From the NCBI RefSeq assembly GCF_004745575.1, contig NZ_RPEM01000001.1, positions 372,001-436,000 on the forward strand: DNA of 64,000 nucleotides, in the 5' to 3' direction. How positions within the stretch are numbered: the first letter of the stretch is position 1; each line of letters begins with the position of its first letter. Made by a program: the position numbers and the translations under genes. The stretch is from Pseudotabrizicola sediminis. Lineage in GTDB: Bacteria > Pseudomonadota > Alphaproteobacteria > Rhodobacterales > Rhodobacteraceae. Positions 21,926 to 39,554 of the stretch are shown one piece after another. The notes beneath the pieces were generated by a model. It made no database searches. It saw only the letters and a program-made list of their open reading frames with translations, and was not told the origin of the DNA.

Positions 21926-22120
21926 TGCCGTGAAAACCGCAGGACACTGACTGTATGCTCTGCCCCCCGCGCCGTGACGGCTGCGGCGCGTCGCGGGGTA
22001 TACCGTAAAATATCGCCTGAAGGCTGGAACCAAACCTGCGATCTTGCGTTATGCGCCCGGCACGAGCGCATTTGAGCGCCGAGTGTTCGATTTACAAAAA
22101 AGAAAAATGGGCAGCCCGAC

Positions 22121-25100
22121 ATGCGGACCGATCTGGACACACGTTTCACACTTTCGGATCCGCGTGCATTCGTTTCCATAATGGTCGCCGTCTCACTGGT
22201 CGCGGTCTTTGTACTTGATCTCATGTTCCCATTGGGAACAGCGGTCTGGCTGGGGTACTTCCTTCCCCTCGTCCTCAGTTTCGCCTCTTCGCGGCCTTGG
22301 ATGCCGGTGGCAATTTCGGTGGCCGTCGCGACAGGGTTGCTGGTGGGGTTCGGACTGGACCAGTTGGGCAGCGATCCCGCCAATATCGATTCAACCGTGG
22401 CGGCGTCGAACCGCACCATGGCCGCCGCCGTGGGGTTCATCCTTGGCGTGGCTGGGCGCTATCTGATCAACAGCCGCAATCGTCTGGACGCGGCAGATTG
22501 GGTGCAGCAGGGTCAGGTGAAGTTGGCAAGGGCGGTGCAGGGTGATCTGACACTGGAAAAGTTGGGCGCACAGGTGCTTGGCAATCTGGCCGAAAAGCTC
22601 GGCGCGCGGGCGGGCGTCATCTATGTCCGGCAGGGGCGCGGGTTCGAACGGATCGGCCATTGGGGCGGCGACGGGCTGGCCCTGCCCCAAACCATTGCCG
22701 AAGACGAAGGTCATCTGTCGCGCGCGACGCAGACTAACAGCATCATCAGCCTGACGGCACCGCCGGAAACCGCCCTCGGCTGGGGTTCGGGGCTGGTGCG
22801 GGGCAAGGCCGCCCACACGATCATCATCCCGACCCATGATGGCATCTCCTGCAACGGGGTAATCGAGATCGGGTTGGACCATCCCCTGCCCGACGCCCGG
22901 CACCATTTGCTGGAGCGGGTCGGTGACAAGGTTGGCGTGGCCATCCGTTCGGCCCAGTACCGGACCCAGTTGCAGCAGCTGCTGGAAGAAAGCCGTCGTC
23001 AGACCGAGGAGCTGCGCAGCTACAGCGAAGAACTGGCCTCCACCAATGAAGAGCTGGAAGAACAGACCCGCGCGCTACAGGAAAGCCAGCAGCTTCTGGA
23101 ACATCAGCAGGCCGAACTGGAAGGCCAGAACGCCCAGCTTGAAAACCAGACCCAACTGCTGGAAGAGCAGCGCAGTGCCTTGGTTCAGTCGCGCAAGTCG
23201 CTGGAGGAACAGGCCAAGGTGCTGGAACGCGAAAGCCGGTACAAATCGGAATTCGTCGCCAATATGTCGCATGAGTTGCGCACCCCGCTGAATGCATTGC
23301 TGATCATGTCACGGCTTCTGGCGGAAAACCGGGGCCGGACGCTGACCGGCGAACAGGTGCGCTGGGCCCAGACCATCGAAAGCTCGGGTCAGGATCTGCT
23401 GACGCTGATCAACGACATTCTGGACCTGTCCAAGATCGAGGCCGGCAAGCTGGATGTGATCCGCGCCGAAGTGGACCCGCAATCGGTGGTGCGCAAACTC
23501 TTGCGCGGGTTCGAGGTGCAGGCACGGTCCAAGGGCCTGCACCTGACGGCAGAGGTCGCACCGGGTATCGGGACATTCTTCACCGACATCAACCGTCTGG
23601 AACAGGTCTTGCGCAATTTCCTGTCAAACGCGTTGAAATTCACCGATCGTGGCCGGGTGTCCCTGCACATTACGCCCGCAGCTGACGGTATCGCCTTTTC
23701 CGTTCAGGACACTGGCATCGGGATCGCCGAGACCGAGCAGGAGGCGGTGTTCGACGCCTTCCGTCAGGCGGATGGCACGATTTCGCGCCGCTATGGCGGC
23801 ACCGGCCTTGGCCTGTCCATCTCGCGTGAGCTGGCGGATCTGCTGGGCGGCAGCATCTCTCTGGCCAGCACCCCCGGTCAGGGCAGCACCTTCACGCTGA
23901 CCATTCCGCGGGATCTGCCGGCCCGCGGGGAACAAACCCGTCGCGTCAGCACCACCGAAGCGCACAGCATGCCGGCCCCGTCGTTTGCGCCCGCCACGGC
24001 GAAAGGTGTCACAAAGGCCCCGATGCTGACGCCCCTGCCCGGCGTCACCGACGACCGTGACGCACTTTCCCCCGGCGACCGGATCATGCTGGTGGTCGAA
24101 GACGATCCGGCCTTTGCGCAGGTGATGACCGACCTTGCAGCCGAGCTTGGCTTTAAATGCCTGTGTGTGGGCCGCGCGGATGAGGCCGTTGCGGCGGCAC
24201 GTTTCTACCTGCCCCATGCCATTGTGCTGGACGTGGGCCTGCCCGATCATTCCGGCCTGTCCGTGCTTGATCAGCTCAAGCGCGATCTGGCGACTCGCCA
24301 CATCCCGGTGCATATGGTGTCCGCCGAGGATTATACGCTGGAAGCCATGTCCCAGGGGGCCATCAGTTATATGATGAAACCGGTGCAGCGCGACGAGCTG
24401 GCACTGGCCATTCAGCGCCTGGAACAACGGCTGGAACAGCGCGTGCGCCGCGTGCTGATCGTCGAAGACGATCCGGCACAGCTGGAAGGGCTGAAGGCCC
24501 TGCTGGGCAACAACGAGGTCGAAACTGTCGGTGCCCCGACCGCCGCCGAGGCTTTGGCAGTGTTCCGCAGCCAGCCGGTGGATTGCATCGTGCTGGACAT
24601 GACCCTGCCGGATGCGACGGGGTTTGACCTGCTGGAAATGCTCGATTCCGATGACGACCCCAGCTTTCCGCCGGTCATCGTCTACACCGCCCGCTCGCTG
24701 TCCGAGGCCGAGGAACAGCGTCTGCGACGGCATTCCAAATCCATCATCATCAAGGGCGCGAAATCGCCCGAACGGCTGATCGACGAGGTGACGCTGTTCC
24801 TTCATCAGGTGGTGTCGGACCTGCCGGAACGGCAGCGCGAAATGCTGGCCGCGTCGCTGAACCGCGATTCCATGCTTGAGGGGCGCCGTATTCTGGTGGT
24901 TGAGGATGACATCCGCAACGTCTATGCCCTGACCGGCATTTTCGAGCCGCATGGCGCCACCGTGCAGATCGCGCGCAACGGGCGCGAGGCGCTGGATGTG
25001 CTGGGCCGGATCGCCGATGGCGCGCAGCCCAAGATCGATCTGGTGCTGATGGATGTGATGATGCCCGAAATGGACGGCATGACCGCCACGCGCGAAATCC

Positions 25101-25264
25101 GCAAGATCGACCGCTGGAAACACCTGCCGATCATTATGCTGACCGCCAAGGCCATGGCGGATGACCCGAACCAGTGCCTTGCCGCCGGGGCCAATGACTA
25201 TTTGTCCAAGCCGCTGGATGTGGACAAGCTGTTGTCGCTGACCCGGGTATGGATGCCGCGATGA
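22121..25264 (+). CDS. Hybrid sensor histidine kinase with three receiver domains
   Basis: This 1047-residue protein has three to four N-terminal membrane segments (residues about 17-114), a GAF domain (about 130-290), a long Glu/Gln-rich coiled coil (about 290-375), the HisKA H-box M-S-H-E-L-R-T-P-L-N near residue 383, an HATPase (N-A-L-K-F near 503, G-T-G-L-G-L-S near 560) and three receivers with phospho-acceptor Asp in I-V-L-D-V (~702), I-V-L-D-M (~823) and L-V-L-M-D-V (~975). It would sense a signal at the membrane and phosphorylate several receivers in series. The next gene, cheR, overlaps its stop by four bases. Target unknown; resembles sensory hubs of the BarA/chemotaxis-hybrid type. 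Confidence 0.9.
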   Translation: MRTDLDTRFTLSDPRAFVSIMVAVSLVAVFVLDLMFPLGTAVWLGYFLPLVLSFASSRPWMPVAISVAVATGLLVGFGLDQLGSDPANIDSTVAASNRTMAAAVGFILGVAGRYLINSRNRLDAADWVQQGQVKLARAVQGDLTLEKLGAQVLGNLAEKLGARAGVIYVRQGRGFERIGHWGGDGLALPQTIAEDEGHLSRATQTNSIISLTAPPETALGWGSGLVRGKAAHTIIIPTHDGISCNGVIEIGLDHPLPDARHHLLERVGDKVGVAIRSAQYRTQLQQLLEESRRQTEELRSYSEELASTNEELEEQTRALQESQQLLEHQQAELEGQNAQLENQTQLLEEQRSALVQSRKSLEEQAKVLERESRYKSEFVANMSHELRTPLNALLIMSRLLAENRGRTLTGEQVRWAQTIESSGQDLLTLINDILDLSKIEAGKLDVIRAEVDPQSVVRKLLRGFEVQARSKGLHLTAEVAPGIGTFFTDINRLEQVLRNFLSNALKFTDRGRVSLHITPAADGIAFSVQDTGIGIAETEQEAVFDAFRQADGTISRRYGGTGLGLSISRELADLLGGSISLASTPGQGSTFTLTIPRDLPARGEQTRRVSTTEAHSMPAPSFAPATAKGVTKAPMLTPLPGVTDDRDALSPGDRIMLVVEDDPAFAQVMTDLAAELGFKCLCVGRADEAVAAARFYLPHAIVLDVGLPDHSGLSVLDQLKRDLATRHIPVHMVSAEDYTLEAMSQGAISYMMKPVQRDELALAIQRLEQRLEQRVRRVLIVEDDPAQLEGLKALLGNNEVETVGAPTAAEALAVFRSQPVDCIVLDMTLPDATGFDLLEMLDSDDDPSFPPVIVYTARSLSEAEEQRLRRHSKSIIIKGAKSPERLIDEVTLFLHQVVSDLPERQREMLAASLNRDSMLEGRRILVVEDDIRNVYALTGIFEPHGATVQIARNGREALDVLGRIADGAQPKIDLVLMDVMMPEMDGMTATREIRKIDRWKHLPIIMLTAKAMADDPNQCLAAGANDYLSKPLDVDKLLSLTRVWMPR

Positions 25265-26124
25265 CCCCTGTTCCCGTGCCCGTACCCGCCCCGGAAGAGG
25301 TGGAGCTGGATCTGTTTCTGGAAGCGCTTTACCGGCTCTATCACTATGACTTCCGCTCTTATTCCCGCGTGTCGCTGCACCGGCGCGCCGATCTTGCGCG
25401 CGAACGTCTGGACTGCGCCACGCTGTCAGACCTGCAACGACGTCTGTTGCGCGAACCCGATGTGCTGCCCGCAGTCATCGACGCCATGACCGTGCAGGTC
25501 AGCGAGGTGTTTCGCGACCCGGCCTATTATCTGGCGCTGCGCCGAGAGGTCATCCCGCATCTGAGCACCTTCCCGTCGCTCAAGGTCTGGGTCGCCGGCT
25601 GCGCGGATGGCGAAGAATTATATTCGCTGGCGATCCTGTTTCGCGAAGAAGGGCTTTTCGACCGCACCCTGTTCTATGCCACCGAAATCAACCGCCGCGC
25701 CTTGGCCAAGGCGGAAGGTGGCGTTTATGACATGGCCCGCATGGCCCATTTTTCGCAGAATTATCAGCAATCCGGCGGCCGGGCCTCGCTGTCCGATTAC
25801 TACACCGCCGCCTATGGCCGTGCCGCCTTTGACCGCAGCCTGCGCCGCAAGACCGTGTTCACCGAACACAACCTTGCGACCGATCAGGTGTTCTCCGAAG
25901 TGCACCTTGTGTCGTGCCGCAATGTCCTGATCTATTTCGACGCCACCTTGCAGGACCGGGCGCTTGGACTGTTCGCAGGCTCATTGGCGCGCGGCGGATT
26001 TCTTGGCCTCGGGTCGCATGAAACGCTGCGCTTCTCAGCTTATTCCCATTTGTTCTCTGCGTTTGACGAATCTCAACGCATTTGGCGCCGCACCGCGCGG
26101 CAAGAGGGTGATCATGCCAGGTAA
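25261..26124 (+). CDS. CheR-type protein-glutamate methyltransferase
   Basis: This 287-residue protein has the CheR all-alpha N-terminal domain and the SAM-dependent methyltransferase core. Visible motifs are V-S-E-V-F-R-D-P near residue 80, V-W-V-A-G-C-A-D-G-E-E-L-Y-S near residue 110 (canonical CheR has C-S-T-G-E-E-P-Y-S) and C-R-N-V-L-I-Y-F near residue 219. No methyl-accepting receptor or CheB lies nearby, so it probably modifies the neighbouring sensor kinases or another protein rather than a classical chemoreceptor. ATG 25261 overlaps the hybrid kinase stop (ATGA) and its 3' end overlaps the next gene by 11 bases. Confidence 0.88.
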   Translation: MTPVPVPVPAPEEVELDLFLEALYRLYHYDFRSYSRVSLHRRADLARERLDCATLSDLQRRLLREPDVLPAVIDAMTVQVSEVFRDPAYYLALRREVIPHLSTFPSLKVWVAGCADGEELYSLAILFREEGLFDRTLFYATEINRRALAKAEGGVYDMARMAHFSQNYQQSGGRASLSDYYTAAYGRAAFDRSLRRKTVFTEHNLATDQVFSEVHLVSCRNVLIYFDATLQDRALGLFAGSLARGGFLGLGSHETLRFSAYSHLFSAFDESQRIWRRTARQEGDHAR

Positions 26125-27946
26125 CGACGTCCGCTTCCTGCTTGTCGATGACATCAGGGAAAATCTGGTGGCACTCGAGGCGCTGCTGCGCCGCGATGGT
26201 CTGGAAATCCACACGGCACAATCCGCCGCTCAGGCATTGGAACTGATGCTGGTGAACGACTATGCCCTGGCCTTTCTCGATGTGCATATGCCCGAAACCG
26301 ACGGCTATGAACTGGCCGAGCTGATGCGGGGGGCTGAACGGACCCGGCGGCTGCCGATCATCTTCGTGACCGCCGCAGACATGGACGAAACCCGCCGCTT
26401 TCGCGGATATGAGGCGGGGGCGGTCGATTTCATCTTCAAGCCGATTGATCCCGTCATCCTGAAATCAAAGTCCGAAGTGTTCTTCCAGCTTGGATGCCAG
26501 GCACGCGATCTGGCGCGGCAACGCGACGAGATGCGCGCAATGGCCCTGCACCGCGATCAGGCCATGGCGCGGCTGAAAGCCCATGCCGACAATTCACCGC
26601 TTGCCACTGTCGAGCTGGATTGTGATCTGAACCTGCGGGTCTGGTCGCAGGGCGCCGAGCGGATCTTTGGCCACAAGACACGCGACATGCTGGGGAGACC
26701 GGTTGCCGGAACCCGATGGCTTTCAGAGGAAACCATCCACCTTTTGCGCGGCTGGATTGCGGATGATGAAGGTCAGGACTCCGCCCCCCGCTATACCACC
26801 GAAGCCATAGCCTTTCACGCCGGTGGCCACGAAATTGCCTGCGAGCTTTATGCATCGTCGCTGTGCGAACCCGAAGGACAACACCGGTCGCTGACGCTGC
26901 AGGTTCTGGACATCTCTGAACGGCGTCAGGCCGAAGCCATGCGATCGCTGCTGATCGGCGAGCTGAACCACCGCATCAAGAACACGTTGGCCAATGTGCA
27001 GGCCATCGCCCGCCAGACCCTGCGCCAGTCGACCGGGCTGGAGGATTTTGACCGCAGCTTTTCCGGCAGGCTTCAGGCCTTGTCCCGCGCGCATTCCATC
27101 CTGTCCGACGCCACATGGTCCAGCGCGCCGCTGGACGATCTGATAGCTGATCAGATCAAGGCCGGAACGCTGGATGGCGACAGGTTGCGCCAGTCCGGGC
27201 CGAAGGTGCAGATCTCACCGGAAAACATGCTGCGCCTTGCGCTCACCCTGCATGAGCTTGGCACAAACGCGCAAAAATACGGCGCGCTGTCGCGGTCGGG
27301 CGGCGAAGTGCATCTGTCTTGGCGCTGCGAAGGCGAAGGGCTGGTTCTGCAATGGCAGGAACGCGGCGGGCCGCACGTCACCCCCCCTGTCCGCACAGGC
27401 TTTGGCCATACCCTAATCGGCGCAAGTGCGGGCGGTCAGGACGGCAGCGTTGACGTTGACTGGCAGCCCGAAGGTGTCATCTGGACCATCCGCCTGACCC
27501 AAGGGGTGACGCCCGTCAGCGGGGACGCGCCTGTCCAGAAGGCTCTGACTTCCGTCACCGTAACCGAGGAGTCGCTGGTGGGGCGGCGGATTCTGATGAT
27601 CGAAGACGAACCCCTTGTCGCGCTTGATCTGACCTTCGAGCTGGAAGATGTCGGGGCCGAGGTGGTCGCGGTGGCGCGCACCCTGCGCGACGCGCTGCGC
27701 GAAGCAGCGGATCAGATGGTGGATCTTGCCTTGCTCGACGGCAACCTTGGCGGCGAAAAGGTGGATGCTGTCGCCGAAATCCTTAGCCGGCGTGGGATTC
27801 CCTTCTGCTTTGTGTCAGGCTATGGCCCGGAACACCTGCCCGCCGGCTTCCGGACCGTCCCGATTGTCCAAAAGCCGGTCGATCCGGCGCGACTGCTGTC
27901 TGTGCTGCATCAGATCAGCGTCACACCTGTCGCAGAGACCCTCTGA
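26114..27946 (+). CDS. Receiver-PAS-HWE histidine kinase-receiver protein
   Basis: This 610-residue soluble protein has an N-terminal receiver (Asp near residue 56 in A-F-L-D-V-H-M-P), a PAS domain (about 155-265), an HWE-family kinase core with E-L-N-H-R-I-K-N-T-L-A-N-V-Q near residue 282 and the H-E-L-G-T-N-A-Q-K-Y-G-A-L-S ATP-binding motif near residue 379, and a C-terminal receiver (Asp near 541 in L-L-D-G-N). HWE kinases often feed PhyR in the alphaproteobacterial general stress response. The start ATG 26114 lies inside the end of cheR; the three genes form one operon. Confidence 0.9.
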   Translation: MPGNDVRFLLVDDIRENLVALEALLRRDGLEIHTAQSAAQALELMLVNDYALAFLDVHMPETDGYELAELMRGAERTRRLPIIFVTAADMDETRRFRGYEAGAVDFIFKPIDPVILKSKSEVFFQLGCQARDLARQRDEMRAMALHRDQAMARLKAHADNSPLATVELDCDLNLRVWSQGAERIFGHKTRDMLGRPVAGTRWLSEETIHLLRGWIADDEGQDSAPRYTTEAIAFHAGGHEIACELYASSLCEPEGQHRSLTLQVLDISERRQAEAMRSLLIGELNHRIKNTLANVQAIARQTLRQSTGLEDFDRSFSGRLQALSRAHSILSDATWSSAPLDDLIADQIKAGTLDGDRLRQSGPKVQISPENMLRLALTLHELGTNAQKYGALSRSGGEVHLSWRCEGEGLVLQWQERGGPHVTPPVRTGFGHTLIGASAGGQDGSVDVDWQPEGVIWTIRLTQGVTPVSGDAPVQKALTSVTVTEESLVGRRILMIEDEPLVALDLTFELEDVGAEVVAVARTLRDALREAADQMVDLALLDGNLGGEKVDAVAEILSRRGIPFCFVSGYGPEHLPAGFRTVPIVQKPVDPARLLSVLHQISVTPVAETL

Positions 27947-28004: not shown

Positions 28005-28229
28005 TCAGCTGTCCGGCTGCTCTGATTCGGGTGACAGTGCCGACCGCTGGCGATCCATCGGCGCAAGCGACTGCAGGGCGATGTCGAGGTCTGACTGGAA
28101 CACAGATTGCAGCCGTGCCGCATTGCTTTTGGCATGTGTCGAAAGGCTTATCTTGCCGATCATTGAATTGCCTTCCAGCGCTTGGGCAAGCTGCTGAATG
28201 AATGGATCTGGCGGGGCCATTTTGGGCAT
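28005..28229 (-). CDS. Small hypothetical protein
   Basis: This 74-residue hydrophilic protein starts at ATG 28229 behind GGGAGAG, a good ribosome binding site. I do not recognise a family. It is predicted to be helical (D-P-F-I-Q-Q-L-A-Q-A-L-E near the N-terminus) with a disordered, acidic C-terminus. It is convergent with the HWE kinase gene. The site and codon use make it plausible; it could still be spurious. Confidence 0.5.
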   Translation of the reverse strand: MPKMAPPDPFIQQLAQALEGNSMIGKISLSTHAKSNAARLQSVFQSDLDIALQSLAPMDRQRSALSPESEQPDS

Positions 28230-28609
28230 CTTACTCTCCCATAACTCATAAAAAACTGTTCATTTTCACGCAAACAGCAGAACAACAGATGCCTTTCAAA
28301 CCAAGACACCATGCGACGGCACGACTGCCCCCGCAAAAATGACCGAAGAAACGGGGGATGTTGATGCGACGCACCATCACAGGAAAATGGGACACTTACC
28401 TCTGAATACGCGCCAACCCGGCTCTCCAGTCTTCCAATGCACCAGTCGTCTTAACAGCTGGTAACCAATTTATACGATTCAGAAGCCTGTGCGAACAGGT
28501 TCGGAAACTACCTAAGAAAAAAGCATTCCGCCCACCTCATCGTCAACAGGAAACCTCCGCAACGCCCGTCTGACATCGACCAAAGTTCCAGATCACCCCC
28601 GCCATCCGG
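28230..28609. other. Intergenic, no gene seen
   Basis: About 380 bases between two divergent small genes. AT content is above the surroundings. No gene or RNA is recognisable; the right edge adjoins the EcfG-type promoter. Confidence 0.5.
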
Positions 28610-28634
28610 GGAACGCAACCTTGCGACGTTCGTT
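28610..28634 (+). promoter_or_regulatory. Predicted EcfG (general stress response) promoter
   Basis: GGAAC (28610-28614), exactly 16 bases, CGTT (28631-28634): an exact match to the EcfG-type consensus of alphaproteobacteria. It ends 25 bases before the ATG of a small hydrophilic protein gene that heads a five-gene run. Confidence 0.75.
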
Positions 28635-28659
28635 GATGCAGCAGGAAACGGAGAGTGCC

Positions 28660-28845
28660 ATGACACAGAAGATGCCATCGAATGAGGCCCTGCGAAACAA
28701 GGGTGGGGTCATCGACCAGCGCAAGCAGCAGATCGACCCTGCGGGAAAGCATCGCGACGATCCGAACGACCTGGCAAAACGCTCGCAGAAGCAACCGGGG
28801 CAGGATCTGCGCGATCCGCAAAAGGACACCGGCAATGCCGAATGA
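28660..28845 (+). CDS. Small hydrophilic stress-type protein
   Basis: This 61-residue protein (starting MTQKMPSNEALRNKGG) is very hydrophilic, rich in Lys, Asp, Gln and Pro, and has no hydrophobic core, suggesting intrinsic disorder. GGAG precedes ATG 28660. It is first behind the predicted EcfG promoter, and proteins of this composition are common in general-stress regulons, so a stress-protection role is inferred. Its stop overlaps the next gene start. Confidence 0.65.
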   Translation: MTQKMPSNEALRNKGGVIDQRKQQIDPAGKHRDDPNDLAKRSQKQPGQDLRDPQKDTGNAE

Positions 28846-29020
28846 ACCGAAAGCCGCCAAACAAAAGCGCCCGCCGCCACCGGATCGTCAGAATGCACAG
28901 GATGATCACGAAGGGTCGGCGCATAGCCCGGACGAATTTGATGTGATGAACCCGCAAAAGCAGGGGGTGGGGGACGGACAAGCCGATCAGGCGGCCCCGA
29001 AACCTGCGACCAAACGCTGA
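28836..29020 (+). CDS. Small hydrophilic protein, second of stress operon
   Basis: This 61-residue protein starts at ATG 28836, ten bases inside the previous gene, and reads MPNEPKAAKQKRPPPPDRQN, continuing with a highly charged, Pro/Gln-rich sequence. No family is recognised. Like its neighbour it is likely disordered. The tight overlap and the downstream flavoprotein gene 19 bases later support a real gene in the same transcript. Confidence 0.55.
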
Positions 29021-29039
29021 CGTGACATCGCAGGTGAAG

Positions 29040-29984
29040 ATGCGGGATTGCGTCATTGTCGGCGGCGGGCCCGCAGGCCTGACCGCCGCGCTTTATCTTG
29101 CCCGGTTCCTGCGCAGTGTCACCGTGATTGACGCGCAGGACGGGCGGGCGCAACTGATCCCGAAAACCCACAACCTTGCCCCGTTTCCCGACGGCATTTC
29201 AGGTCTTGATCTTCTTGGCCGGATGCGGGGGCACGCGTGCCAATATGGGGCAGTCATTGAACCCGGCACTGTCCGCAGCGTTGCAAAGCAAGACGGCGTG
29301 TTTCACATCACGACCGACAGCCGAACCCTTATGGCCCGCACGGTCATCTTCGCCACAGGCGTTTTCAACCATCGGCCGCCCCTGTCCTCCGGGCAACATG
29401 CGCAGGGTCTGGCGCTTGGGCTGATCCGCTATTGTCCGGTGTGCGATGCCTATGAGGTGCGTGACAAGCGTATTGCGGTGCTTGGACACGGTGACCACGG
29501 CACCAAAGAGGCGCGCTTTATCAGCCATTATTCCCCTTTTGTGACCTTGATCCCGCCAGACGGATCAGTGGGCGTCCCGCAAACCGGCATCGCTGCCCTG
29601 TCGGCACCCATGCAGCGCATTTCCCTGTCAGAAACCGAGGTGATCGTCACCTTGGGGACCGGCGCGTCCCACCATTTTGATACGCTTTACGTCGCCCTTG
29701 GCACCACGGCACGGTCAGATCTGGCGGATGGGCTGGGGCTGCGTCTGGACGCAGGCCACATTGCCGTCGATTCCCGGCAGCGGACCAGCCTCGACGGCGC
29801 CTATGCCATCGGGGATGTCACCGACGGTCTGGACCAGATCGCGGCGGCCATGGGCCAGGGGGCCATCGCAGCCGCCGCGCTCCACAACAGCCTGACTGAA
29901 AAAGCGTCCCGTGCTCTGACCCACAGCACAGCGCCGCACACCGATGGTCCCGCTGCCACCGAACCCCGTCTGGAGGTTTCCTGA
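29040..29984 (+). CDS. Thioredoxin-reductase-like FAD/NAD(P) oxidoreductase
   Basis: This 314-residue flavoprotein has the N-terminal FAD Rossmann motif V-I-V-G-G-G-P-A-G-L-T-A near residue 5, a redox pair in C-P-V-C-D near residue 134, an NAD(P) loop (V-L-G-H-G-D-H-G near residue 152) in which the usual third Gly is substituted, and the C-terminal A-I-G-D-V-T-D FAD motif near residue 264. It would reduce a disulfide partner or another small electron acceptor. ATG 29040 with AGGTGA upstream is preferred over GTG 29022. It is in the predicted stress operon and its stop overlaps the deaminase start (TGATG). Confidence 0.85.
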   Translation: MRDCVIVGGGPAGLTAALYLARFLRSVTVIDAQDGRAQLIPKTHNLAPFPDGISGLDLLGRMRGHACQYGAVIEPGTVRSVAKQDGVFHITTDSRTLMARTVIFATGVFNHRPPLSSGQHAQGLALGLIRYCPVCDAYEVRDKRIAVLGHGDHGTKEARFISHYSPFVTLIPPDGSVGVPQTGIAALSAPMQRISLSETEVIVTLGTGASHHFDTLYVALGTTARSDLADGLGLRLDAGHIAVDSRQRTSLDGAYAIGDVTDGLDQIAAAMGQGAIAAAALHNSLTEKASRALTHSTAPHTDGPAATEPRLEVS

Positions 29985-30460
29985 TGCCGCCTTCCCCTTC
30001 GCCGCCGGTCAGCCCGGCAGAGCACTCTGCCATTGTAGACGCAATCCATCGCGCGCTCGCCGCCCGGCAGGAAAGCGGCAAGTCCGGCATCGCGGCATCC
30101 GTGCTTTGCAACGGCCAGACCGTCGCCAAGGCAGAGAACGAGGTTCACCTGCACTGCGACCCCACCCGACATGCCGAAATGGTCGCCATCACGCGCGCGG
30201 CAGAGGCGCTTGGCACAACCGATCTCAAGCAGTGTGTGATGATCTCTACCCTGCAACCCTGTGAAATGTGTCTGGCGGCGATGCGCTTTGCCGGAATACG
30301 CCGCGTGATTTTTGCGGCCACCCAAGGCCGTGTGGCGGGCAAATACTTTGCGTTCCCGCACCTGAGCCTCGACGACTTCCGTCATGGCAACGACTTCGAC
30401 GCCATCGGCGGGATCTGTGAGGATCTGGTGCTGCACCTTTACGCCACCGGAGAAGAATAA
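29984..30460 (+). CDS. Nucleoside/base deaminase family protein
   Basis: This 158-residue zinc-dependent CDA-fold deaminase shows the H-A-E motif (R-H-A-E-M) near residue 65 and the second zinc motif P-C-E-M-C near residue 91. The layout resembles guanine deaminases and TadA-like enzymes; the length and the tail (A-G-K-Y-F-A-F) do not decide the substrate. Translationally coupled to the upstream flavoprotein and followed immediately by the VOC gene. In a stress operon it may clear damaged or unwanted bases, which is inference. Confidence 0.8.
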   Translation: MPPSPSPPVSPAEHSAIVDAIHRALAARQESGKSGIAASVLCNGQTVAKAENEVHLHCDPTRHAEMVAITRAAEALGTTDLKQCVMISTLQPCEMCLAAMRFAGIRRVIFAATQGRVAGKYFAFPHLSLDDFRHGNDFDAIGGICEDLVLHLYATGEE

Positions 30461-30883
30461 ATGCCCGCACCCAAATTGCTGAGGATTCTTGAAAGCTCGC
30501 TTTATGTCAGTGATCTTGGCAGGGCCGCCGCGTTTTACGAGGGCGTCATGGGCCTGTCGTGCCTGCACGCGGATGACCGGATGCGCGCGTATAAGGTGAA
30601 TGGGGTCAGCGTTCTGCTGCTGTTCCTGCGCGGTGCCACGACACAGCCGGTTCAGACGGGTGGCGGACTGATCCCACCCCATGATGCCACCGGCCAGATC
30701 CACATGGCCTTTGCCATCACACCAGAAACGCTGCAGGCGTGGCGCGACCATCTGGCCCAACACGCAGTGGAAATTGAAGGCACGTCAGACTGGCAGCGCG
30801 GCGGACACAGCCTGTATTTCCGCGACCCGGACGCCAACATGCTGGAAGTGGCAACCACACCGGGGCTCTGGCAGGGCTTCTGA
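30461..30883 (+). CDS. VOC-family (glyoxalase/bleomycin resistance-type) protein
   Basis: This 140-residue protein has the paired beta-alpha-beta units of the vicinal oxygen chelate fold. The first metal-ligand region lies near residue 15 (S-S-L-Y-V-S-D-L), H-M-A-F-A near residue 80, and the C-terminal G-H-S-L-Y-F-R-D-P-D-A-N-M-L-E-V metal/substrate motif near residue 108. The Glu of L-E-V is the expected metal ligand. It may act on methylglyoxal-type or aromatic substrates; the substrate is not readable. ATG directly follows the deaminase TAA. Confidence 0.85.
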   Translation: MPAPKLLRILESSLYVSDLGRAAAFYEGVMGLSCLHADDRMRAYKVNGVSVLLLFLRGATTQPVQTGGGLIPPHDATGQIHMAFAITPETLQAWRDHLAQHAVEIEGTSDWQRGGHSLYFRDPDANMLEVATTPGLWQGF

Positions 30884-31002
30884 CCGATGCATCCGGCGCG
30901 CAGCCTTCCCTGAAGCGCAGATCTACGGTCGCACGCAGATGGTCGAGACCGAAAGCGCAGGCCCGGACGTCCATTCCCGAAACCCCATCAGGAAACTGAC
31001 CA

Positions 31003-31554
31003 ATGCCCCCCGACACGCCTTCCACAGACCAGTTACCGCCGCGCACCCCTGTTCAGGTCGTCGCTCAGGAAACGCTGATCGCTAATCTGCGCAATGCACA
31101 TGCCTTGGAAAAGCAGGTGATCGCGGTGCTGGAACCGCAGCTGAAGCTGTTGGACGACTACGCTGACCTGCACGCCAGACTTACCCGCCACATCGCCGAG
31201 ACCCGCGAACAGGCAGAGCGGCTTGAGGCCGCATTAGCCTCCTGCGGCACATCGCCCTCCATGATCAAGGATGCGGTGCTGAGTGTGATGGGGCTTGGAC
31301 AATCTTCGGCGCAGGGCTTCAGTTCCGACGCAGTGCTGAAGGCCGTGGTCGCCGACATGATGACGGAACATCTGGAAATCGCGACCTATCGCACGCTGAT
31401 CGTGCTTGCCGAAATGGCGGGTCGGTCAGAGCTTGTCCCTGCACTGGAGGCATCCCTGCGCGAAGAGGAAGCGATGGCAGACTGGTTCAACCAGAACCTC
31501 GAACTGCTTGCGCGGCGGTTTGTCGAGCTCGAGACGGCACAGAGACGTCAGTAA
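31003..31554 (+). CDS. DUF892 / YciE-family ferritin-like protein
   Basis: This 183-residue four-helix ferritin-like protein belongs to the YciE/DUF892 family of stress-induced proteins. It has the family features of a helix beginning L-R-N-A-H-A-L-E-K-Q near residue 30, a second helix with H-I-A-E-T-R-E-Q near residue 63, the D-M-M-T-E-H-L-E-I-A-T-Y motif near residue 116 and L-R-E-E-E-A-M-A-D-W near residue 152, supplying acidic/His metal ligands. Members are commonly in general-stress regulons. It follows the EcfG-type operon after a 119-base gap. No promoter of its own was recognised. Confidence 0.85.
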   Translation: MPPDTPSTDQLPPRTPVQVVAQETLIANLRNAHALEKQVIAVLEPQLKLLDDYADLHARLTRHIAETREQAERLEAALASCGTSPSMIKDAVLSVMGLGQSSAQGFSSDAVLKAVVADMMTEHLEIATYRTLIVLAEMAGRSELVPALEASLREEEAMADWFNQNLELLARRFVELETAQRRQ

Positions 31555-31617: not shown

Positions 31618-33279
31618 TCAGGGCCGGGTTTCAATCGCCTGCGCCGCGACGGGCAACATATGTTTGCGCACTGCGCGGGTGATTTCGCCCATCTGGATCG
31701 GCTTGCAGATCACATCGTCAAAGCCGCTGTTGCGGTAAGAGTTTATCTGTCCGGGCTGCGTGTTTGCGGTCACCGCGATCAGCGGAAGGGGCGGTATGCC
31801 CCTGCCCTGTTCGGCGGTACGGATGGCCAGTGCCGCCGTGACGCCATCCATCCGTGGCATGGAAATATCCATGAACACCGCAGTGAGCGCCCCTTCCCGC
31901 ACCTTCGTCAACGCTTCCAGCCCATCGCGCGCTGTCTCCACACCCAGCCCGAGCAGCTCCAGCATCGCCTTGATGACAGCCAGGTTGGCCGCATTGTCAT
32001 CCACGGCCAGCACCACCATACCAGCCACCGCATCCAGCGTCGGGGGATCTTGCGGAGCCACCGGCTCATCCACCGTTTGCAAGGGCAGCTCGACCTTGAA
32101 CTCCGTGCCCCTGCCCTCCATGCTGCTGACGGTGATGGCACCGCCCATGCCCGTGACCAAATGCTTGACGATCGACAGTCCAAGACCGGTGCCGCCAAAG
32201 CGATGCGAAATGGTCGCATCCGCCTGACCGAAGGCCGTGAACAATGACTCCGCTGCCTCTGGGGTCATGCCAATTCCGGTATCGCTGACCGTCACCCGGA
32301 ACGGACGGCCCGGAACACAGCTGAACCTGACCGAGACAGTTCCCGCTTCGGTGAATTTGATCGCATTGCTGACAAGGTTTTGCAGGATCTGGTTGATCCG
32401 CATCTCGTCGCCCCGCCACAACGCCCTCGCCCCCGGATTGGTCATCACCTCAAACGTCAGACCCTTTTGCTCCGCCACGTCGAAGTACAACGTGTCAAGC
32501 CTGTTGGCCAAATCAATCGGCCGGAACGGCACGGGGTTGAACTCCAGCTTGCCGGCTTCGATCTTGGACAGGTCGAGCAGGTCATTCAGGAGCTGCAGCA
32601 TTACGTCACCGGACTCGATGATCGCCTGAACCCGGGTCTGATGCACCGGATCGACCAGATCCTGTGCCAACACCTGGGCCAGCCCCATGACGCCGTTCAG
32701 CGGCGTGCGCACCTCATGCCCGACCGAAGCCACGAATTTTGCCCGGGCATCCGATTCCCGTGTGGCCGCCGCCATGGCCACGTCCCTGTCCTGAACGGCT
32801 TTGATCAGCAGGATCTGTTCGTCCACCATTGCGGCCAGCTCTTCGATCAGGGACTTTTCTTCCCGTGTCCAGTTGCGCGGCGCGCTGTTGAACACGCACA
32901 GCGACCCGATCGGCGCACCGGACGGCTCGTGAATCGGTACACCCAGATATGAGATGATCCCAAGTTGCCTCACCGCAGGGTGCTCCATGACACGGTCATC
33001 GGTGCGGGCGTCAGCAATGACCAACGGTGCATCCGCGTCGCGTACCAGCTTGCAAAACGAATGACTGAGCGGAGTTGCGCGTTCGGTCTGCAGGGGTTCG
33101 GCGACACCGTTTGTGCTGCGAAAGAACTGGCGGTCGGCCTCATCGTCGATAACCGACATAACCGATGCCTCGGCACACAGAATAAGTCGTGCCAGACGGG
33201 TCTGACGGTCAAATCCGTCATGGGATGTTCCGTTCAGCAACCCAAGCGATGCCAGAGTATTGCTTGTGATATGCAGCAT
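31618..33279 (-). CDS. GAF hybrid histidine kinase with receiver
   Basis: This 553-residue soluble protein has an N-terminal GAF domain (about 20-155, with L-G-V-P-I-H-E-P-S-G typical of GAF sensor kinases), a HisKA H-box G-H-E-V-R-T-P-L-N near residue 190, an HATPase with N-A-I-K-F near residue 312 and G-T-G-L-G-L-S-I near residue 371, and a C-terminal receiver with the phospho-acceptor in F-M-D-I-S-M-P near residue 470. It is convergent with the DUF892 gene. An EcfG-type motif lies about 250 bases upstream on its strand. Signal and target unknown. Confidence 0.9.
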   Translation of the reverse strand: MLHITSNTLASLGLLNGTSHDGFDRQTRLARLILCAEASVMSVIDDEADRQFFRSTNGVAEPLQTERATPLSHSFCKLVRDADAPLVIADARTDDRVMEHPAVRQLGIISYLGVPIHEPSGAPIGSLCVFNSAPRNWTREEKSLIEELAAMVDEQILLIKAVQDRDVAMAAATRESDARAKFVASVGHEVRTPLNGVMGLAQVLAQDLVDPVHQTRVQAIIESGDVMLQLLNDLLDLSKIEAGKLEFNPVPFRPIDLANRLDTLYFDVAEQKGLTFEVMTNPGARALWRGDEMRINQILQNLVSNAIKFTEAGTVSVRFSCVPGRPFRVTVSDTGIGMTPEAAESLFTAFGQADATISHRFGGTGLGLSIVKHLVTGMGGAITVSSMEGRGTEFKVELPLQTVDEPVAPQDPPTLDAVAGMVVLAVDDNAANLAVIKAMLELLGLGVETARDGLEALTKVREGALTAVFMDISMPRMDGVTAALAIRTAEQGRGIPPLPLIAVTANTQPGQINSYRNSGFDDVICKPIQMGEITRAVRKHMLPVAAQAIETRP

Positions 33280-34060
33280 GGTATTCCTCTTGCCCTGAGC
33301 GGCGGGCTGCGCCAGTCAGGTCCGTTTCCGGTAATAAATCATTCTGGCGTGAACATCCGATCGATATTCAGCACAATCGCCCAACAACACCTTAATGCCA
33401 TCGAGTATTTCGTCAGCAGACAGGCTGCCTTTTGCTGTCCCGGAGCTGTATCGACCCGCTGGCGCTTGCGGCGTCTCTATTGATAAAACGCGGAAAGGTC
33501 CAAGCGCGCCCAGTTTGCCGGCTACCACAAACGCAAAAAACGATGCATTGTTCCCACACAATTTTCACGTATGCGTGACCTCTCCATCTCCTTCACTTGG
33601 CCATCAAGGCGCAAGGTCAGCGTCTATACCCTTGGAAAAAGGTGGATTTCTCTGAGAGATCGCGCGCGCACTGGCCTTCGACCAATCCGCACAGTCACGC
33701 CGCGATCCGGTTTTAGCCTTGCACGAAGCCCCGAAACACCTGTTGGCGGGTACAAGTCCCATGAGGGCAGGCCCGTCCCACTCGGTGAGTGCAGTGGCAC
33801 GGTTGGCCTACTCAAACAGGTATAGTCCGACAGAGCCATACACAGAAGTCCTGAGACTCTCAGCGCAGGCGGACCCAGACAGGGGCCGACTTCTGGCATC
33901 TTACTTCTAATCGTTCGACCGCCTCATCAGTGGGAGACACGGGCAGCGCACCTCCGGGTCAGTTGTGCTGCACTGTGCCCCATTTTTGTCTAATTAAGGA
34001 TGTAATTACCGACGTCAATCCTCCGTGATGGAGGCAAATCATAGGAGCCATGAGAACGTC
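33280..34060. other. Intergenic, no convincing gene
   Basis: About 780 bases without a supported gene. It contains an EcfG-type motif (33530-33554, minus strand). A short minus-strand reading at 33316-33561 would need a TTG start lacking a binding site and is not called. Other frames show no family resemblance. Confidence 0.5.
33530..33554 (-). promoter_or_regulatory. Candidate EcfG-type promoter
   Basis: On the minus strand GGAAC (33554-33550), 16 bases, CGTT (33533-33530): exact consensus and spacing. The nearest recognisable downstream gene is the GAF hybrid kinase, 250 bases away, so the leader would be long. Confidence 0.45.
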
Positions 34061-37922: not shown

Positions 37923-39224
37923 TCATTCGCCCGGAGTGAGCTTGTGAATCATGCCCTCATCCACGGCAGCGTAAAGGCTGCCATCTGGCCCCATGACAAG
38001 CGAGCGGAATCGTCCCGCTTCCATTGGAAGTGTCATTTCTGTGACATCGACGACCGCAATGCCATCTTGGCCATTGGACATCTCAATCACGTCGATGCGC
38101 TGACCGATTGGCGTGCCGCCAAATCCGATGCCCATTAGTCCGATGACCATGGCGCCGTCCCAGGTGCCCCAAGCCTCACCTTCAAGGAAAGCAGCGGAGG
38201 AACTGCCCTGCGACCAGCCGTTGTTGGTCCAGATCGAGGGCATTGCATCAGGATAGGTCACCAGGTCGGTCATGGGCATGTATTGCGCCCGTTCATACCG
38301 GTTCATCCCATCCATCTGGTTGGGTTCATAGCCGCAATAGCCATCGGGGCAATTGTCTTCACGACCCGCCATGCCCGGTCGAGGATCCCAACCGGCGTTG
38401 CCGCCGTTTTTCAGCACCGTCGTTTCGTCTGAGTGCCAGGGGCCATGCTCGACAGTGATCGCATCACCCGTTTCCGGGTGGAAAGCGATGCCCTGAACGT
38501 TTCTGTGCCCATAGGTGAAGGTTCGCAAATCAAAGCCCTCGGGTGGCGCGTTGCCTTCGACGGCATTGCCATCGGTGTCAATGCGCAGAACCTTGCTGCC
38601 CATCAATGTCGGGCTTTGCGGAACCTCAGGATTGTGATTGTCACCGGTGGTCAGGAACAGATGGCCTTCGGGACCGAACCGCACGCGACCGCCATTGTGA
38701 GCACCCGGTCCCCCAAACGGCTGGTCCGAAGCGTTCATCTTGTAGGGCACGTCATCCACAATGTCAGTCCGGTTGGAGACAGCCGTGAAATCCTCGTTTA
38801 CTTCCAGCCGGATCAGCCGGTTGGTATGCGGATCGGACATATTCGATGTCGCGTAGACGTAGATCCGGCGGTTCGCTTCGAAATCGGGATCGACTGCAAC
38901 CCCCATCATACCCGCCTGTCCTTCGCAGAACAGATCGTCGGCAGTGGTGGCATAGCCATCGGTGCCTTCCATGCCAAGAAGCGCGTTGACCTCGCCCGAC
39001 GGCATGAGCACGGAAAGGCCGTCGCATTTTTCAGTGAAAAACATCGTGCCTTCATCGAAGAAGGCCATGTCCCACGGTTCATCAAGACCTTCCAGCACAA
39101 CGCTGTGCTGAAGGCTACTGGTGTTGGTGCCGGTCTGCGAGAAAGCCGGGGCACCAAACGCGACGGCGGATGCGGCAACGGCGATCAATGATATCTCGGT
39201 ACGACCGTTCTTTCGGAAATTCAT
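37923..39224 (-). CDS. PQQ-dependent sugar dehydrogenase (soluble, YliI/Asd-like)
   Basis: This 433-residue periplasmic protein has a signal peptide (residues 1-30, ending A-F-S) and the six-bladed propeller of the GSDH/YliI family. Landmarks are L-D-E-P-W-D-M-A-F near residue 47, H-N-G-G-R-V-R-F near residue 177, Y-G-H-R-N-V-Q-G-I near residue 238 with the His-Arg-Asn of the PQQ site, and E-H-G-P near residue 259. It oxidises sugars or similar aldehydes with PQQ. GGGAGGAAC lies before ATG 39224. A cytochrome c gene upstream on the same strand could accept its electrons. Confidence 0.88.
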   Translation of the reverse strand: MNFRKNGRTEISLIAVAASAVAFGAPAFSQTGTNTSSLQHSVVLEGLDEPWDMAFFDEGTMFFTEKCDGLSVLMPSGEVNALLGMEGTDGYATTADDLFCEGQAGMMGVAVDPDFEANRRIYVYATSNMSDPHTNRLIRLEVNEDFTAVSNRTDIVDDVPYKMNASDQPFGGPGAHNGGRVRFGPEGHLFLTTGDNHNPEVPQSPTLMGSKVLRIDTDGNAVEGNAPPEGFDLRTFTYGHRNVQGIAFHPETGDAITVEHGPWHSDETTVLKNGGNAGWDPRPGMAGREDNCPDGYCGYEPNQMDGMNRYERAQYMPMTDLVTYPDAMPSIWTNNGWSQGSSSAAFLEGEAWGTWDGAMVIGLMGIGFGGTPIGQRIDVIEMSNGQDGIAVVDVTEMTLPMEAGRFRSLVMGPDGSLYAAVDEGMIHKLTPGE

Positions 39225-39554
39225 GATGTTCCTCCCTCATATCAATCTTGCCGGATGTCTTATTGTATGACTCCTGCCCAGATTGAACGCATCGAAAGCC
39301 CGGAAGGTTCCCAGATGACGGCAAACTCGCAGCTGGCAAGGGCCTATTCCACTGGCCAACGGGTTTTGGCCATCCCAACAACGCATTCTACACATGGGTC
39401 TCTTGCTGAAATCTCGTTGGCGTATGGCCAAATCAGTAAGGCCTTGGCCGGCCAAGCTTTAAGACGGACGAGCCCGGCGTGAACCGTGGGTTATGCTGAA
39501 CCCTGCCATGGCAGCTTTCCTTCCCCGCGCCGGTGCGATCCCAGCAGTCGCAGG
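39225..39554. other. Intergenic, no gene seen
   Basis: 330 bases between the cytochrome c gene and the dehydrogenase gene on the same strand. No open frame or clear promoter was recognised. Confidence 0.45.

Follow-up and report, generated by a model that had tools for sequence, protein, structure and literature searches.

The gene run that begins at position 28660 of the analysed DNA (the window, a stretch of 64,000 nucleotides from Pseudotabrizicola sediminis) is most probably a new unit of the known EcfG regulon that includes a small-protein family not described before, and not a new kind of system. This assignment was made because the cognate regulators are encoded in the genome, the EcfG motif is enriched upstream of genes, the promoter site is kept in Pseudotabrizicola formosa and the motif recurs before 16 of 29 homologues of P1, the first protein of the run. 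Alphaproteobacteria have the EcfG response as their master stress switch, which, to our knowledge, has been little studied in Rhodobacteraceae. Judged from sequence, the promoter at 28610-28634 is very probably EcfG-dependent, with a probability of about 0.92 that covers the promoter only and not the functions of the proteins behind it. The features are as follows:

28610-28634, + strand: EcfG-type promoter, an exact match (-35 box GGAAC at 28610-28614, 16-base spacer, -10 box CGTT at 28631-28634)
28660-28845, + strand: P1, 61 aa, predicted disordered, core DQRxQQIDPAGxHR, with homologues in Rhodobacteraceae
28835-29020, + strand: P2, 61 aa, predicted disordered, with homologues; overlaps the end of P1
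29022 (GTG) or 29040 (ATG) to 29984, + strand: thioredoxin reductase-like flavoprotein (Pyr_redox_2, 4e-28)
29984-30460, + strand: zinc-dependent nucleoside deaminase-like protein (HAE and PCEMC motifs; dCMP_cyt_deam_1/MafB19-deam)
30461-30883, + strand: VOC/glyoxalase-superfamily protein (Pfam Glyoxalase)
31003-31554, + strand: DUF892 ferritin-like protein (121.8 bits, above the Pfam gathering threshold of 23.7)
L001:917-1492, - strand: EcfG, in the canonical nepR-ecfG/phyR locus of the genome
L001:1489-1650, - strand: NepR (57 bits to Pfam NepR)
L001:1740-2549, + strand: PhyR (351 bits to the NCBIfam PhyR model, cut-off 240)

The first-pass annotation had placed a GGAAC-N16-CGTT promoter 25 bases before the gene run, and its coordinates proved exact: the ATG of the first gene (28660) lies 25 bases past the end of the CGTT box (28634), which is promoter distance. 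Transcription would be expected to start at about 28640-28642, some seven bases past 28634. An in-frame ATG at 28636 was rejected as the start of P1, as it lies ahead of this predicted transcription start and P. formosa has no equivalent of it; there, the P1 homologue begins at the ATG corresponding to 28660. The window gave no match to Rfam and no tRNA. The motif count alone was rejected as evidence: the window held five matches (spacing 15-18) against 1.96 expected, only marginally above shuffled sequences, 5 of 100 of which reached five, and the genome total fell below that of the reversed pattern (83 against 144 matches), a deficit probably explained by codon composition. What gives the promoter weight is where it lies, that it is conserved and that the genome encodes the cognate sigma factor, and not the motif alone.

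The 83 exact genome matches to GGAAC-N16/17-CGTT, many of them within genes, were analysed by calling genes around every site. In total, 43 sites were upstream-intergenic, defined as outside genes and -30 to 200 bases from the downstream start, compared to 9.5% (49/515) for permuted motifs (p 1.9e-22). The permuted motifs had the same letters and were scored in the same stretches as the real sites; because these stretches had been picked around real sites, the control is conservative. The genes behind motif sites included phyR, nepR-ecfG, and those for Dps-like ferritin, CsbD, Ku, PRC-barrel, DUF2383 and PLDc_N proteins, OmpA with a glycine zipper, a pyridoxamine-oxidase-like protein and an entericidin-like peptide just below its Pfam cut-off. 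Across the genome, the motif was enriched upstream of recognisable general-stress genes. The EcfG regulon of Sphingopyxis granuli comprises csbD, ecnAB, ku-ligD, nepR-ecfG and phyR among others (PMC7083833). The system described here resembles the EcfG regulon in its GGAAC-N16/17-CGTT promoter, in the divergent arrangement of nepR-ecfG and phyR with an exact motif on each strand in between, and in having CsbD, Ku, the entericidin-like peptide and a ferritin-like protein among its targets; it differs in the P1-P2 operon, which is not among the known units in the cited literature. Exact motifs in stretches L009, L017, L021, L028, L078, L095, L098 and L120 had no gene called downstream, and these stretches are candidates for small RNAs or missed small ORFs.

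In P. formosa, the nearest named relative (G135, locus L048), the promoter GGAACGTAACCCTGCGCCGTTCGTT also lies 25 bases ahead of the start of the P1 homologue, which is 84% identical. The motif region matched the window at 22 of 25 positions, whereas the adjacent upstream sequence aligned poorly and with gaps. A 20-kb P. formosa stretch contained three GGAAC-N16/17-[CGT]GTT sites, all at the positions of window sites (22026+, 28610+ and 33530-); many spacer bases had changed in the counterparts of 22026+ and 33530-. Further upstream, the block GAACAGGTTCGGAA-N2-TACCT at 28492-28512 was kept in P. formosa, and we take it to resemble a near-match to the GTTC-N7-GTTC LexA box; a genome-wide search for it returned a single occurrence and hence no identifiable regulon motif. 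Between the HWE kinase described below and P1, positions 28005-28229 (- strand) encode a 74-aa protein of no known family that is 86% identical in P. formosa.

When one genome per species was scanned with the pattern [DN]Q[RT]xQQIDP, 30 P1 loci were found, in Rhodobacteraceae wherever the record named a family or genus; one was labelled only Alphaproteobacteria. With one near-duplicate left out and at most one mismatch allowed 10-60 bases before the start, GGAAC-N16/17-CGTT preceded the 16 of 29 homologues mentioned above, compared to an average of 0.37 for 319 permuted motifs, which reached 7 at most. The other 13 had no recognisable promoter 10-60 bases ahead. GGAAC was intact in all 16, and most changes were from CGTT to GGTT or TGTT, both of which are reported -10 boxes of EcfG-dependent promoters (PMC7083833). 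P2 in genome G150 (L145) had an exact EcfG motif of its own.

In a sample of 295 Rhodobacteraceae genomes, confident P1/P2 matches were found in 12 (11 genera), all of them NepR-positive against a NepR background of 139/295 (47%), giving a hypergeometric p of 2e-4 for the association. P1 itself was patchy, occurring in about 3% of Rhodobacteraceae genomes. A class-wide search for P1 (385 genomes) gave one borderline match besides the window's own genome, and the family looks confined to Rhodobacteraceae at the search sensitivity used. Borderline P1/P2 matches in G268, G116, G184 and G216 were discarded as chance. The reading of the site as an EcfG-type promoter is supported by the regulators in the genome, the enrichment at stress genes, the synteny with P. 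formosa and the conservation before P1 homologues. Membership of the EcfG regulon is indicated by the motif at promoter distance, the cognate EcfG, NepR and PhyR, and conservation against a diverged background.

The two small proteins had been annotated as belonging to no recognised family, and P1 and P2 indeed gave no family match in Pfam, NCBIfam or PHROGs. Both were classed as disordered by the charge-hydropathy criterion, with GRAVY values of -1.76 (P1) and -1.70 (P2), and the predicted model of P1 was of low confidence (pLDDT 64, pTM 0.23). The definition of hydrophilins includes glycine above 6% and a hydrophilicity index above 1 (PMC7448490). The glycine contents of 8.2% (P1) and 6.6% (P2) exceed the first limit; the hydrophilicity of P1/P2 is scale-dependent with respect to the second, at 1.76/1.70 on the sign-reversed Kyte-Doolittle scale and 0.86/0.76 on that of Hopp-Woods. 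P1 and P2 resemble hydrophilins (YciG/KGG, CsbD, LEA-like) in being small, above 6% in glycine, predicted disordered, linked to a general-stress sigma factor and, on the Kyte-Doolittle scale, very hydrophilic, but differ in lacking a KGG or CsbD motif and, for P1, in a specific invariant core and in fusions to SDR and catalase.

P1 is defined by more than its composition. The core, DQRxQQIDPAGxHR, was near-invariant among the P1 homologues while the remainder varied, and its codons differed synonymously, which argues for selection on the P1 protein. This conservation is partly built in by the recruitment pattern, with the trailing A, G, H and R lying outside it. The core was also present at the N-terminus of SDR proteins (L053, L059 and L060) and of a KatE-type catalase (L071), each fused frame coming from one assembly. 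In L063, P1 lies directly ahead of KatE, and a cluster of sigma factor, DUF892, P1 and SDR genes near Ku recurred in Tabrizicola-type genomes. Long forms of P1 (L072, L074, L075 and L076) exhibited a C-terminal DESFPASDPP-type motif, which is shared by other small proteins in the neighbourhood (L053 and L059).

These features allow, as a minority reading, that P1 carries a short docking motif recruiting stress enzymes to a shared partner and is not a general protectant; such a role for P1 would not conflict with EcfG control. The near-invariant core with its synonymous codon variation and the SDR and catalase fusions point that way, but recruitment by pattern biases the core positions (other than the trailing four) and the fused frames come from single assemblies. 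Fairly unlikely is the wider version, in which the core would be a portable EcfG-stress docking tag in Rhodobacteraceae, free or N-terminal on catalase and SDR, that gathers enzymes on a common partner. P1 represents an undescribed, stress-linked family of tiny, predicted disordered proteins; P1 and P2 probably serve in protection or docking, and their designation as new stress-protection proteins, suggested earlier, is plausible.

For the four larger genes, Pfam agreed with each of the first-pass assignments (flavoprotein, deaminase, VOC and DUF892). The flavoprotein resembles thioredoxin reductase in its FAD/NAD(P) fold match and its CxxC motif, CPVC (within YCPVCDAYE), and its closest solved chains were thioredoxin reductases; unlike that enzyme, it scored 155.4 bits against TIGR01292, far under the equivalog cut-off of 343.45. 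The DUF892 protein is like the YciE/YciF type in its domain and in that, in related stress islands, such genes are often neighbours of P1 or SDR genes, but is divergent, at 122 bits compared to 214 for the Tabrizicola copy. As a low-confidence guess, the deaminase might remove damaged nucleosides and the VOC protein reactive or modified small molecules.

Overlapping or abutting genes had been described, and the coordinates agree: P1 overlaps P2, the flavoprotein and deaminase genes share one base at 29984, and the VOC gene abuts that of the deaminase. From P1 to VOC, no second EcfG motif and no + strand terminator was found. A gap of 119 bases separates VOC from DUF892; it contained no EcfG motif and no + strand terminator-like site, and DUF892 is a possible distal member of the operon.

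Gene content behind P1-P2 differs among genomes. P. formosa has no flavoprotein, with 143 bases in place of about 990 in the window, and its 8-kb locus gave no match for DUF892; its deaminase and VOC protein are 84% and 90% identical, respectively. In L050, P1 and P2 are fused in one frame and the flavoprotein is retained. In G301 and other congeners, deaminase-VOC is separate from P1, and in G301 it has its own exact EcfG motif (L127) near a second EcfG-like sigma factor and NepR; a flavoprotein relative in the same genome has as its neighbour a DUF892 gene with a GGAAC-N16-GGTT site. The comparison indicates that what stays constant is the promoter with P1-P2, and that the enzymes form a changing set. 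The second sigma factor beside deaminase-VOC was located at L127:2524-3309, where NepR follows, and at L128:2614-3126, where an exact EcfG motif lies upstream.

The variable gene content, the separate deaminase-VOC with its own motif in G301 and the 119-base gap before DUF892 would suit an arrangement in which EcfG drives P1-P2 only, perhaps with the flavoprotein, and deaminase-VOC or DUF892 is transcribed separately. This is rather improbable for the window, where the genes from P1 to VOC overlap or abut with neither an internal EcfG motif nor a + strand terminator found. Least probable by far is that the match arose by chance, with the operon depending solely on an upstream housekeeping promoter such as TTAACA-N16-TACGAT at 28451-28478: the 83 genome matches, many inside genes, this weak 9-of-12 sigma-70-like site and the CAATTTATA around it common to P. 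formosa could be cited in favour, but the motif is conserved exactly and in place in P. formosa and recurs before P1 homologues, and the sigma-70-like match does not stand out from chance (2 found, 1.0 expected).

For EcfG control of the operon, the following mechanism is proposed, in which we infer EcfG dependence, the transcription start, the operon extent and all protein functions. In the unstressed cell, EcfG would be bound by NepR; upon stress, a kinase would phosphorylate PhyR, and PhyR~P would take NepR off EcfG. This partner switch, up to the release of EcfG, is established (summarized in PMC5830050). Freed EcfG with RNA polymerase would then transcribe from about 28641, giving one polycistronic message for P1, P2, the thioredoxin reductase-like flavoprotein, the deaminase and the VOC protein, with DUF892 probably transcribed by read-through. 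The enzymes would most likely serve redox and damage clean-up, and P1 and P2 would most likely act as hydrophilin-like disordered protectants, the invariant core of P1 suggesting a fixed partner too. The PhyR study in R. sphaeroides, which its authors call the first for the order, assigned PhyR a narrow role in membrane and UV stress and not a general one (PMC5830050), which may mean that the stimulus in Pseudotabrizicola, also of the Rhodobacteraceae, is different.

Other EcfG motifs were located in the window. The one at 22026-22050 (+ strand), with a syntenic P. formosa counterpart at L151:3670-3694, precedes an operon at 22121-27946 encoding a hybrid kinase, a CheR-like protein and an HWE kinase; if these kinases feed PhyR, a feed-forward loop is possible. 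The C-terminal receiver of the HWE kinase (26114-27946, + strand) matched the receiver part of the PhyR-family NCBIfam model at 73 bits, in two stretches and below the cut-off. The motif at 33530-33554 (- strand), kept in place in P. formosa (L151:13646-13670), is followed after about 250 bases by the gene of a GAF histidine kinase that has a receiver domain (31618-33279, - strand), and the long leader in between might contain a small RNA or small ORF. A third, with a 17-base spacer (39286-39311, - strand), lies 61 bases before a gene at 37923-39224 (- strand) that by eye appears PQQ-type sugar dehydrogenase-like; a similar gene elsewhere (L006) also bears a motif.

These results should be of interest to specialists on alphaproteobacterial stress. 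The approximately 40 candidate EcfG promoters in one Pseudotabrizicola genome constitute a testable set, and the conserved core of the P1 family, together with its enzyme fusions, offers a route to its function.
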